Positions 17,075 through 20,613 of a DNA stretch of 38,058 bases are shown one piece after another. This DNA is from Acidobacteriota bacterium (lineage in GTDB: Bacteria > Acidobacteriota > Vicinamibacteria > Vicinamibacterales > JAFNAJ01): assembly GCA_016789685.1 (NCBI GenBank), contig JAEUQQ010000071.1, positions 1 through 38,058 on the forward strand, given 5' to 3'. A program made the position numbers and the translations under genes. The notes under the pieces are model-generated. The model was not told where the DNA came from. It ran no database searches and saw nothing but the letters and a program-made list of their open reading frames with translations. How positions within the stretch are numbered: position 1 is the stretch's first letter; each line of letters opens with the position of its first letter.

Positions 17075-17725
17075 TCAGTGCTCGAGACGCGGGACGTAGT
17101 ACCGCGTGCCGCCCGTCATGCCCTGGATTTGCCGCAGGATTTCATCGACCGCGGCGTCTGGCCAGTCGGGCTCGACCTGCGAGGTTTCGACGACGAGCAA
17201 CGGCGTGGCCGTGTAGTGGAAGAAGAAGTGATTGTAGGCGTCGCTGAGCTCGCGCACGAACGCCTGGTCGGGCAGGGGGCGCTCGGGATGGGTCTTGCCC
17301 CCCTGCTTGACGCGCCGGAAGACGACGTCGGCCGGAGCCTGCAGGTACACGACGACGTCTGGCGCCGCGATGTCGCGCACGAGCAGGTCGAACAGCCGCT
17401 GGTAGATGAACAACTCGTTGTCGTCGAGCGTGACGTAGGCGTAGATCTTGTCGCGGTCGAACAGGTAGTCGCTGACTGTTGCCTGCGCGAACAGGTCGCC
17501 CTGCCTCAGCTGGCCCTGCTGGCGATGCCGCCCGAGCAGGGTGAACAACTGTGTCTGGAATGCCGCGCCGGCCCGCCCCGCGTAGGCGTCGGCGAGAAAG
17601 GGATTCTCGGTCTCGTCGAGTACGACCGAGGCATCGAGGCGGGTCCCGAGCCGGTCGGCCAGTGCTGACTTGCCGAGGCCCGGTGGTCCCTCGATGGCGA
17701 GGTACCTGAAGTCCACGCGGCGCAC
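17075..17725 (-). CDS. Deoxynucleoside kinase
   Basis: 216 residues, deoxyadenosine/deoxyguanosine kinase family. The P-loop GPPGLGKS is at 13-20, followed by DETENPFLADAY, which corresponds to the substrate-binding EPxxNP-type segment. A D-R-D motif (VSDYLFDRDKIYA) and VVYLQAPADVVFRRVKQGGK supply the catalytic and LID arginines. It phosphorylates deoxynucleosides for salvage. In many bacteria a homologue is linked to folK; here it precedes accD-folC. The start is GTG 17723-17725, with another GTG three codons later as an alternative. The divergent lipoprotein gene begins 88 bp away. Confidence 0.85.
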   Translation of the reverse strand: MRRVDFRYLAIEGPPGLGKSALADRLGTRLDASVVLDETENPFLADAYAGRAGAAFQTQLFTLLGRHRQQGQLRQGDLFAQATVSDYLFDRDKIYAYVTLDDNELFIYQRLFDLLVRDIAAPDVVVYLQAPADVVFRRVKQGGKTHPERPLPDQAFVRELSDAYNHFFFHYTATPLLVVETSQVEPDWPDAAVDEILRQIQGMTGGTRYYVPRLEH

Positions 17726-17793
17726 TCTAACCGTTCGACTCGACCGTGTCGAGTCGGCGCCGCCTCAGGCCGGCCGAACCGCCGATTCCCGCG

Positions 17794-17802
17794 TGCTAGC
17801 AT
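17794..17802 (+). promoter_or_regulatory. Extended -10 element of the HEAT-cyclophilin gene
   Basis: TGCTAGCAT reads as an extended -10 (TG-n-TAGCAT). It ends 11 bp before ATG 17814, so the transcript would have a leader of only about five bases and be almost leaderless. No recognisable -35 box is needed for this type, and none is seen. Confidence 0.4.
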
Positions 17803-17813
17803 GGCCCCGCGCC

Positions 17814-19973
17814 ATGTCTCTTTCCTGCCGAACGCTTGTCGTGATGGCCGTCGTGGTCACCGCTGCCTGTGCCCCGCCGCCCGTGGTCACACCCCCACCT
17901 CTGCCGACGTGGGAAGAGAAACTCGCCGACATCCTGCGCCTCGAAGACGCGCGCATCCTGCGCGATCCGGCGCCGGTCGTGGCGCCCGCGGTGCCGGTGC
18001 TGCCTGCGCGTGGCCGGCGAACGCCGGTGCCCGCCGTGGCGCCGCCTCCACCGCCGCCCGACCTCACACGTCTCGTGGCCGACGGCGAAGCCCGCGTCCG
18101 GCGTCGTGCCGCGCTGGCGATCGGCCGCGTCGGGCTGCCAGAGGGCGCCGCGGCCCTGCAGGCGACGTTGCGCGATGCGGATCCCGAAGTGCGACAGATG
18201 GCCGCGTTTGCCCTGGGCCTCGTCGGGAACGCGGCCGCCGCCGCCGACCTGCGCGCCGCGCTCGCGGCTGACGCCGACCTGCGGGTGCGCGGCCGGGCGG
18301 CCGAGGCCCTCTCGAATCTCAATGACACCGAGGCGATCCCGGGCATTCGCGACCTCGCGGTCTCGATCGTGTCGAGCGGGGCCCTCGCGTCCATCGATCC
18401 CGACGACCTGTCGCCGACGCTGCCCGCCGCACCCGAGGCGTACCGCCTCGCGCTCTACGCGCTCGTGCGCCTCAAGTCGTGGGACGCCGTCGCCGCGGCC
18501 ACGCTCGACGCCCGCGGACAGCCCGTCGCGCAGTGGTGGCCGATCGCCTACGCGCTCCAGCGCACGGGTGACGCCCGCGCGCTGGCACCGCTGCTCGCGC
18601 TGGCATCGTCGCCGGCCGTCGAGACGCGCGCGTTCGTCGCGCGCGGACTCGGTGCGCTCAAGGACGCACGGGCAGCGGCGACGCTGCTGACGCTGGCCGA
18701 CCCGGCGACGCACGGGCCGCGCATCGCGGCGGCCGCGGTGCGTTCCCTTGGACAGCTTGGGCCGACGACGCCAGCGGTCGAGGCGCGGTTGCTCACGCAT
18801 GCGCGTGACGCGCGTGCCGACGACAACGTGCGTCTCGAGGCGGTGGTCGCGCTCGGTGCGATTCGTGCCCGGTCGGCGACCGACACGCTGCTCGACATGA
18901 CCGTGGCGCCGTGGGCATCGCTGCGCGCGGCCGCGATGCAGGCCCTGGCGGCCATCGACCCCGACACGCTGATCACGGCACTGTCGGGGCAGGATGCCGA
19001 CGCCGAGTGGTCGGTACGTGCCGAGTTGGCCGCGACGCTGTCGACGTTCGAGCCCGAGCGCGGACTGCCGCTGGTGCGCCTGCTGGTCAATGACGCCGAC
19101 GCGCGCGTGATTGGCCCGGCCCTGCGGGCGCTCGTGCGGCTCGGCGCCGCCGATGCCGAGACCGTCGTCGTCAGGCACCTGGCGCACGACGACGTGATGG
19201 TCAGGGCCGCCGCCGCGTCGCTCGTCGCCGAGAAGAAGTACGCGAGTGCCGCGGGGGCACTGGCGGCCGCGCTCGATCGCGCGAAGGCCGACACGCTGTT
19301 CGATGCCCGCGTCGCCGTGCGCGAGGCGATGGTCGCGCTCGCCCCGGCGCGCGCCGCCGACGTGTGGCGCGAGGGCCTGGCCGATCCCGAGTGGGCCGTG
19401 CGGCGCCACGCGGCCGACCGGTGGCGCACGCTCGACGCGGCGGCCGACGTGTCGCCGATGCGTCCGGCGCCGACCGGGCACGACGCGGCGTTCTACGCGG
19501 CGCCGTCGCTGGTGTCGCCGCCGTACTCACCGCAGCTCTACATCGACACGACGCGCGGGACGATCCAGGTGGAGCTCGACGTGATCCACGCGCCGGTGAC
19601 GTCGCAGAGCGTCATGGCGCTGGCCAGGCGCGGGTACTTCGACGGGATCGTGTTCCACCGCATCGTGCCCAACTTCGTGGTGCAGGCGGGCGATCCGCGT
19701 GGCGACGGCGAAGGCGGGCCGGGGTATGCGATCCGCGACGAACTGAGCGACCTGCCGTTCCTGCGCGGCACGGTGGGGATGGCGCTGTCGTGGCCCGACA
19801 CTGGCGGGAGCCAGTTCTTCATCACGCACGCCCCGCAACCACACCTCGACGGGCGCTACGCCATCTTCGGGCGCGTCGTGGCGGGGATGGAGGTCGTCGA
19901 TCGGTTGCGCCGGTGGGACCGGATCGAGAAGGTGCGGGTGTGGGACGGCGTCGATCCGAGCGGCCTCCGCTGA
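17814..19973 (+). CDS. HEAT-repeat lipoprotein with C-terminal cyclophilin-type peptidyl-prolyl isomerase
   Basis: 719 residues. The first 19 residues form a lipoprotein signal ending in VTAAC (Cys19), followed by a Pro-rich linker. Residues about 95-555 are alpha-helical HEAT/PBS-lyase-like repeats (recurring D-x-x-V-R-x-x-A-A patterns). Residues about 566-719 are a cyclophilin domain with FDGIVFHRIVPNFVVQAGDP, GTVGMALS, GGSQFFITHAPQPHLDGRY and IFGRVVAGMEVVDRL. The Arg and Phe/Met positions needed for catalysis (FHRI, SQFFI) are kept. It probably acts in the periplasm as a scaffolded foldase. The frame is open from 17670, but ATG 17814 starts the signal sequence. The combination of HEAT array and PPIase in one lipoprotein is uncommon. 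Confidence 0.85.
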   Translation: MSLSCRTLVVMAVVVTAACAPPPVVTPPPLPTWEEKLADILRLEDARILRDPAPVVAPAVPVLPARGRRTPVPAVAPPPPPPDLTRLVADGEARVRRRAALAIGRVGLPEGAAALQATLRDADPEVRQMAAFALGLVGNAAAAADLRAALAADADLRVRGRAAEALSNLNDTEAIPGIRDLAVSIVSSGALASIDPDDLSPTLPAAPEAYRLALYALVRLKSWDAVAAATLDARGQPVAQWWPIAYALQRTGDARALAPLLALASSPAVETRAFVARGLGALKDARAAATLLTLADPATHGPRIAAAAVRSLGQLGPTTPAVEARLLTHARDARADDNVRLEAVVALGAIRARSATDTLLDMTVAPWASLRAAAMQALAAIDPDTLITALSGQDADAEWSVRAELAATLSTFEPERGLPLVRLLVNDADARVIGPALRALVRLGAADAETVVVRHLAHDDVMVRAAAASLVAEKKYASAAGALAAALDRAKADTLFDARVAVREAMVALAPARAADVWREGLADPEWAVRRHAADRWRTLDAAADVSPMRPAPTGHDAAFYAAPSLVSPPYSPQLYIDTTRGTIQVELDVIHAPVTSQSVMALARRGYFDGIVFHRIVPNFVVQAGDPRGDGEGGPGYAIRDELSDLPFLRGTVGMALSWPDTGGSQFFITHAPQPHLDGRYAIFGRVVAGMEVVDRLRRWDRIEKVRVWDGVDPSGLR

Positions 19974-20087: not shown

Positions 20088-20106
20088 CGGGGGCGCTAGG
20101 CCCCCG
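20088..20106. terminator. Bidirectional GC hairpin between convergent genes
   Basis: CGGGGGC (20088-20094) and GCCCCCG (20100-20106) enclose the 5-base loop GCTAG. It stands between the plus-strand HEAT-cyclophilin gene and the minus-strand mini-peptide gene ending at 20138. No T-run is seen on the plus strand. On the minus strand GTTCGCGTTT follows, a weak tract. Confidence 0.5.
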
Positions 20107-20137: not shown

Positions 20138-20191
20138 CTACTTCTTCTTCGCGGTCTTCTTGGCGGCCTTCTTTGCAGCCTTCTTCGCCAT
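20138..20191 (-). CDS. Lysine/alanine mini-peptide A (17 residues, histone-tail-like)
   Basis: The complete reading frame encodes MAKKAAKKAAKKTAKKK, nine lysines in 17 residues, with a stop at 20138-20140. It is preceded by AAAGGGGA (20199-20206, minus strand), a plausible ribosome site seven bases before ATG. Its first 12 and last 21 bases are identical to those of the second mini-gene upstream, and the bases after both stops are also similar (CGCGAGGC then CGTGAGCG). This points to tandem duplication. The composition resembles lysine-rich tails of histone H1-like and some bacterial HU proteins, so binding to nucleic acid is a reasonable guess. No folded domain is possible at this length. 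It would be missed by standard gene finders. Expression is unproven. Confidence 0.6.
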   Translation of the reverse strand: MAKKAAKKAAKKTAKKK

Positions 20192-20405
20192 GGTGGTATC
20201 CCCTTTCAAGGGTTGGTTGGGGCCATCGGGTGCATCCCCGCGCTGGTCGTCCTGCCGATGCCGCCTGGCACATTCGGCGACGATGCCGGTGCTCCCGATT
20301 TCGTGCAACGCATTCCGGACTCCGCCGAAGATCGCGCGCCGCAGCGCCCGGAACAGCGGGGCGAGGGTGCGCTCACGCGCGCCTCGCGACGCAGACCGAC
20401 GCGAT

Positions 20406-20465
20406 CTACTTCTTCTTCGCGGTCTTCTTCTTGGCGCCGGCCTTGGCAGCGGTCTTCTTCGCCAT
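20406..20465 (-). CDS. Lysine/alanine mini-peptide B (19 residues, histone-tail-like)
   Basis: The frame encodes MAKKTAAKAGAKKKTAKKK and stops at 20406-20408. A good ribosome site, AAGGAG (20473-20478 on the minus strand), stands seven bases before ATG. A TTGACA-17-TAATCT promoter lies about 95 bp upstream, with a stem-loop in the leader between them. These three signals in the right order make it a credible gene despite its length. It shares both ends with mini-peptide A, 214 bp downstream, and the pair is probably one transcript. The likely role is a small polycation acting on DNA, RNA or ribosomes, but this is inference from composition only. A regulatory leader peptide is an alternative, though no regulated gene follows. 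Confidence 0.65.
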   Translation of the reverse strand: MAKKTAAKAGAKKKTAKKK

Positions 20466-20494
20466 GCGTCGTCTCCTTGGATGGCAGGGACGGT

Positions 20495-20536
20495 TCAATC
20501 CGAGTCGTGACTAGGTAGTCACAACAGGTGGATTGA
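20495..20536 (-). promoter_or_regulatory. Two-level stem-loop in the leader of the mini-peptide genes
   Basis: An outer stem, TCAATCC (20495-20501) with GGATTGA (20530-20536), encloses the palindrome GTGACTAGGTAGTCAC (20507-20522). It lies between the promoter and the ribosome site of mini-peptide B, so the RNA would fold into a hairpin of two stacked stems. The inner palindrome could instead be a protein operator. The arrangement suggests control of leader RNA stability or translation. Confidence 0.55.
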
Positions 20537-20560
20537 GCGGTGCACCTGCATACAAGATGT

Positions 20561-20589
20561 AGATTAGGGACGACATGTGCGCGTGTCAA
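20561..20589 (-). promoter_or_regulatory. Sigma-70 promoter of the mini-peptide genes
   Basis: On the minus strand a perfect -35 TTGACA (20584-20589) and a -10 TAATCT (20561-20566) are separated by 17 bp. A second TTGACA lies 24 bp upstream (20608-20613). Between the two is the near-palindrome CACAAATTCTGTG (20591-20603), which could bind a regulator. Predicted start near 20554, giving a leader of about 90 bases. Confidence 0.6.
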
Positions 20590-20613
20590 GCACAAATTCT
20601 GTGTCGTTGTCAA

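Follow-up and report, generated by a model that had tools for sequence, protein, structure and literature searches.

Two very small minus-strand genes, ORF1 and ORF2, in a 38,058-nucleotide stretch of a Vicinamibacterales (Acidobacteriota) genome (hereafter the window, meaning the whole stretch analyzed) probably represent an overlooked family of very small peptides, which, judging from sequence, would probably coat DNA or RNA. That both are coding genes is close to certain on comparative grounds, with a synonymous bias, a conserved start and ribosome site, and a conserved locus. The reading toward which we lean is that their products would be a free-standing, domainless, histone-H1-tail-like polycation family that binds nucleic acid or another polyanion and is made from a dedicated small transcription unit. 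On the minus strand this unit runs from 20613 to 20088, with the following features:

20608..20613, minus strand: second copy of TTGACA, lying 24 bp 5′ of the −35 element and kept in many relatives
20584..20589, minus strand: −35 element TTGACA, present in almost all aligned loci of the order
20561..20566, minus strand: −10-like TAATCT in approximate −10 register, unchanged across 48 Vicinamibacterales leaders; other orders of the class have TAnnCT in this position
20466..20560, minus strand: putative 5′ leader RNA of 95 nt (folding z-score, leader model, pairing tests)
20548-20543 with 20530-20525, minus strand: leader hairpin P1, CAGGTG with CACCTG
20536-20530 with 20501-20495, minus strand: leader pairing S2, TCAATCC with GGATTGA
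20522-20517 with 20512-20507, minus strand: leader pairing P2, GTGACT with AGTCAC
20473..20478, minus strand: ORF1 ribosome site AAGGAG, with GGAG invariant in 34 leaders and AAGGAGGA in many relatives
20406..20465, minus strand: ORF1, 19-aa peptide MAKKTAAKAGAKKKTAKKK plus stop, with orthologous ORFs and purifying selection in relatives
20192..20405, minus strand: inter-ORF region of 214 nt, containing GTGCCAGGCGGCA, which is common to many relatives, and starting with an intrinsic terminator in most relatives
20200..20206, minus strand: ORF2 ribosome site AAAGGGG (relatives' consensus GAAGGGGGGGAT)
20138..20191, minus strand: ORF2, 17-aa peptide MAKKAAKKAAKKTAKKK plus stop, with orthologous ORFs in relatives, resembling the ORF1 of its own genome more than the ORF1 of other families
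20088..20106, minus strand: hairpin CGGGGGC-CTAGC-GCCCCCG after ORF2, a strong intrinsic terminator in relatives, with a weak T-tract here and no call in a strict scan

The sequence-only reading of this DNA had proposed a tandem pair of genuine genes, each with a ribosome site, with identical peptide ends and a shared upstream promoter. Re-reading the sequence confirmed the positions of the two frames, the identical ends and both ribosome sites (AAGGAG, 7 nt from the ATG of ORF1, and AAAGGGG, 8 nt from the ATG of ORF2), and both the promoter (TTGACA and TAATCT 5′ of ORF1) and the pair itself are conserved in relatives. The similarity that it saw between the 3′ flanks consists of a short GCGAGGC stretch, but is weak. 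It had described neither the 5′ leader, nor the inter-ORF terminator of relatives, nor the order-wide synteny, nor the lineages that lack ORF1, ORF2 or both. On its left, the unit converges with a plus-strand HEAT-repeat/cyclophilin gene (17670-19973); on its right lies a minus-strand gene for a TPR protein, beyond which follow TGT, YajC and SecD. A consensus scanner called no promoter and no terminator in the window, because the −10 element differs from TATAAT and only a weak T-tract is present; both labels therefore rest on comparison with relatives. The second TTGACA (20608-20613) is possibly a second promoter or a regulator site.

The frames are kept in relatives and their substitutions favor synonymous sites, the two points on which the sequence-only reading had staked its claim of coding genes. 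In equal-length groups within one family, 50 of the 62 variable columns fall at third codon positions, or 30 of 38 when codons fixed by the search pattern are left out (both counts uncorrected for ancestry), and pN/pS is 0 to 0.10. The two ORFs of a genome also agree with each other: eight genomes encode identical ORF1 and ORF2 peptides from sequences that differ at 3 to 8 nucleotides, all but one of the differences being at third positions, and across the 28 two-ORF genomes the similarity of ORF1 to ORF2 of the same genome is 0.78 versus 0.56 after shuffling, a value reached by 0 of 5,000 shuffles. Such almost purely synonymous divergence, together with the own-genome similarity, argues that ORF1 and ORF2 are held to one peptide by selection and not by recent copying alone.

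What selection keeps is the composition of the peptides more than their sequence. In a set of 76 peptides of 14 to 65 aa, 75 start with MAKK or MAKR, 71 end with KKR, and the residues after the initial methionine are confined to K, A, G, R, T, V, P, S and C; D, E, F, W, Y, leucine, isoleucine and internal methionine occur in none of the 76. Lysine makes up ∼50% and alanine 29% of this set, the lysine share being partly selected by the scan threshold (K+R of at least one third), which does not hold for the absence of the other residues. A, G and T are exchanged freely between families, length varies freely, and proline is usually missing. All 76 peptides have the composition of an H1-like polycation, lysine/alanine-rich and free of acidic and aromatic residues, and the variable length, with about half lysine and no acidic or aromatic residue, fits a charge-driven, disordered role. 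A hydrophobic type I toxin and an amphipathic antimicrobial peptide were both rejected as candidates, given a composition without leucine, isoleucine, aromatics or methionine beyond the start.

The units are orthologous across the order, whose members are soil and water bacteria, and not scattered. They adjoin the HEAT-cyclophilin gene across 15 families of Vicinamibacterales, a DNA search with the whole unit finds promoter, leader and ORF1 ∼70 to 74% identical in other families, and the HEAT-cyclophilin, TPR, TGT, YajC and SecD neighbors are common to most loci of the order; some families have a D-Ala-D-Ala-ligase-like gene in place of the TPR gene and retain HEAT-cyclophilin. The peptide pattern or the leader is present in 77 of 88 Vicinamibacterales genomes, and among genomes of the class outside this order, 8 were examined at that place and 4 have similar peptides. 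In the 6.17-Mb genome of the window, the pattern MAKK...KK(K/R)-stop has two matches only, ORF1 and ORF2. In a class-wide sample the MAKK scan matched 63 of 119 genomes (62 of 88 in the same order, 1 of 31 in others), and the reversed control pattern only a handful. These few matches per genome and the sparse control show that the pattern exceeds chance, to which synteny, codon bias and leader conservation add further weight. Named records matching the pattern were Acidobacteria and Vicinamibacterales MAGs, and in the rest of the phylum this first pattern gave matches unlike the lysine/alanine peptides. Matches in Enterococcus and Vagococcus from the named-genome scan were rejected as starts of a longer ribosomal-protein-L1-like sequence and not short peptides.

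Retention of the two ORFs varies between lineages. Several carry ORF1 only (e.g., L036, L044 and L048), and families f6 and f10 and most of f11 carry ORF2 only, with an ORF1 remnant in f11 that apparently has ACG in place of ATG. Family f8 has a single peptide of 37 to 65 aa that resembles H1 and AlgP tails, and another part of f8 has neither peptide nor leader, the D-Ala-D-Ala-ligase-like gene abutting HEAT-cyclophilin at most such loci; the unit is dispensable, since this clade does without it. In other orders of the class, the same HEAT-cyclophilin gene is adjoined by peptide ORFs (for example MAAKKAAKKAAKKKK and MAKKKRAKKAAKKTAKKAAKKKK) that follow TTGACA...TAnnCT. Elsewhere in the Acidobacteriota (L281, L282, L283 and L284, from genomes G154, G166, G221 and G263), we observed units of similar build, MA(A/T)KKK...KKK, of 17 to 20 aa; they have a ribosome site and a terminator, some with TTGACA, and are sited elsewhere, the likeness seen being one of build. 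Free-standing lysine-rich ORFs of 14 to 22 aa with AGGAGG sites were also seen in single genomes of other phyla, among them Proteobacteria, FCPU426, Oligoflexia, Elusimicrobia and a Streptomyces-labeled MAG (L089, L111, L119, L120, L121, L149, L171, L181 and L188), and none of them has the Vicinamibacterales leader. A genome in which the peptide unit was not found (G013) encodes a protein of 132 aa whose N-terminal part is H1-like, with lysine, alanine and proline, and whose end is acidic and proline-rich (L066:5702-6100, contig C436).

The promoter and leader are strongly conserved as DNA, and this raises the alternative that the transcript works chiefly as a regulatory RNA, through its leader, its terminator and the conserved inter-ORF stretch, the ORFs being secondary or a translation-dependent switch, which we consider unlikely but deserving of some weight. 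The leader consensus of the order, TAATCTACATCT(T/G)GTATGAGG...GCTCA..CCACC..T.G, yielded a model (R1) that matches 75 of the 88 genomes of the order and 0 of 31 others, almost always once per genome. The leader is probably structured. That of the window folds 4.5 sd better than its shuffles (z-score −4.5) into a structure that partly pairs the ORF1 ribosome site, and this site is paired in the folds of many leaders. RNAalifold returned no consensus structure for the leader alignment, so pairing was assessed by comparing duplex energies in cis and in trans and by counting pairs: P1, S2 and P2 pair better in cis than between species, and 0 of 500 shuffles reach their observed covariation score. 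With one sequence per family, P1 is clearly significant (p 0.003) while S2 and P2 are at p about 0.1, which makes the structure probable rather than proven. Pairing of the leader 5′ end with the ribosome site is also better in cis (with relatedness uncontrolled), and a competing fold, in which the 5′ arm of P1 would pair farther downstream with the leader's 3′ part, gained no support from the cis-versus-trans comparison. Downstream of ORF1, most relatives have a terminator, GGGGGTGTC...GACACCCCC plus a T-tract, the T-tract not being evident in the window, and a strong one follows ORF2, so that expression of ORF2 would require read-through or a promoter not yet seen. Across families, the inter-ORF stretch (20192-20405 in the window; loci L017-L065) has segments of the GTGCCAGGCGGCA and ACGAAGCGAGG type in common, and it is possibly another structured RNA element. 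This conserved motif and the terminator before it count in favor of a regulatory RNA, as does a second promoter-leader copy that one genome alone (G034) showed between ftsA-like and ftsZ-like genes (L237:1996-2092; contig C2:92995-93091), upstream of ftsZ and with no lysine-rich peptide. Against a mainly regulatory transcript stand the strong purifying selection on the peptides, the equality of ORF1 and ORF2 peptides within a genome despite synonymous divergence, and the pattern of loss, with either ORF alone retained in different lineages and part of f8 having lost peptides and leader together.

We return to the polycation reading. Comparison establishes the dedicated small unit, its conservation and the selection on the very short polycations that it encodes. 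A TTGACA promoter comes first, then a conserved and probably structured 5′ leader and ORF1, which in most relatives is closed by a terminator; ORF2 and another terminator complete the unit, which encodes one or two lysine/alanine polycations of 14 to 65 residues, presumably disordered. With nine lysines and neither acidic nor folding residues, each window peptide would be a free-standing counterpart of an H1 or AlgP tail and would act through charge density, coating, condensing or bridging a cellular polyanion. DNA would be the most likely target, followed by RNA or ribosomes and then polyphosphate; DNA comes first because the tails of H1, HU and AlgP are of this sequence type and because in vitro DNA binding is stated for KPAA-repeat peptides (PMC9239181). 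The leader and inter-ORF terminator would probably set the output, as suggested by the pairing of the ORF1 ribosome site in many leader folds, and their conservation leaves room for a function at the RNA level. That the two peptides of a genome are nearly equal points to dose or redundancy and less to a separate partner for each. HU-family matches number 3 to 5 in each of 10 genomes sampled, including those without the peptides, which makes the peptides accessory and unlikely to be the main nucleoid protein.

The same charge could serve another polyanion. AlgP, with its KPAA tail, localizes to and spaces polyphosphate granules (PMC9239181), and the composition of the peptides would suit them equally well to binding or organizing polyphosphate, or a polyanion other than nucleic acid; none of the identified neighbors is a polyphosphate gene, and we think this rather improbable. 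Somewhat more doubtful still is a role as small ribosome-associated or rRNA-binding proteins in the manner of bTHX or eL41. Tiny basic ribosomal proteins do exist, and the peptides are small and basic with strong ribosome sites, but their length ranges from 14 to 65 aa without conserved aromatic or arginine anchors, A, G and T are swapped freely between families, one clade has lost them, and no solved chain matches by sequence. Lysine-rich leader peptides that attenuate a downstream gene would likewise be short and accompanied by a structured leader with a terminator, but gene order nearly refutes this explanation, as ORF2 is followed by a terminator and the convergent HEAT-cyclophilin gene with no same-strand structural gene to control, and alanine, glycine and arginine are kept along with lysine.

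Genes such as ORF1 and ORF2 are expected to be missed by standard gene finding, and their products are likely invisible to trypsin-based proteomics because trypsin would cut them into pieces of a few residues. Since the same kind of search turned up comparable tiny genes elsewhere in the Acidobacteriota and in isolated genomes from other phyla, annotations may lack an entire class of bacterial polycations. More speculatively, and with distinctly less confidence than in the polycation reading itself, Acidobacteriota and perhaps several other phyla could have widespread free-standing histone-tail-like micropeptides of 14 to 25 residues, which would be among the smallest known chromatin or RNA condensers and come from transcripts of their own, with a structured leader that tunes the dose, possibly through peptide feedback on that leader. 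The H1-like polycations known from bacteria are tails or long repeat proteins; in this family the tail makes up the entire protein, down to 14 residues, and so provides a minimal natural system in which to ask how short a chromatin-like or RNA-condensing protein can be.

Database comparison places the peptides near several known systems and inside none of those tested. No Rfam family exceeded its gathering score for the unit, no Pfam or NCBIfam model reached its cutoff with the longest members (the window peptides, at less than 20 aa, are below scan length), no solved protein chain matched by sequence, and no account of these peptides turned up in searches of the literature. A protein search with the 19-aa peptide returned itself only, the sequence being too short and drifting, whereas the whole-unit DNA search and the patterns worked. 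The H1-type or HU-tail nature proposed by the sequence-only reading is compatible with the data: the 37- to 65-aa orthologs resemble H1 and AlgP tails, and the 65-aa one matches HC2 and H1-like models below threshold. We infer that the peptides work like an H1-type tail and yet belong to no named family tested. With Hc2 and the Burkholderia-type H1-like proteins they share lysine-rich repeats and the weak matches of the 65-aa ortholog, but these fall far below the cutoffs (19.1 versus 40 bits for Pfam PF07382, 19.4 versus 135 bits for the HC2 model NF038052 and 17.0 versus 80 bits for NF038053), and the peptides are much shorter and from a different lineage. Actinobacterial HU has lysine-rich tails of the same sequence type; the peptides, in contrast, have no HU domain, and HU genes are separate in these genomes. 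bTHX and eL41 are tiny basic ribosomal proteins, under about 30 aa, arginine-rich and of fixed sequence; the peptides are similarly small and basic but drift in both sequence and length. A further parallel is the C-terminal KPAA-repeat domain of Pseudomonas AlgP/PhaF, likewise a low-complexity lysine/alanine polycation, predicted to be disordered and H1-tail-like. AlgP joins a separate 124-aa helical domain to a 154-aa repeat (PMC9239181), whereas the ORFs described here encode the tail only, without an N-terminal helical domain and so outside the AlgP/PhaF family: the tail, 14 to 65 aa long and usually without proline, is the whole protein, encoded in its own unit behind a conserved leader.
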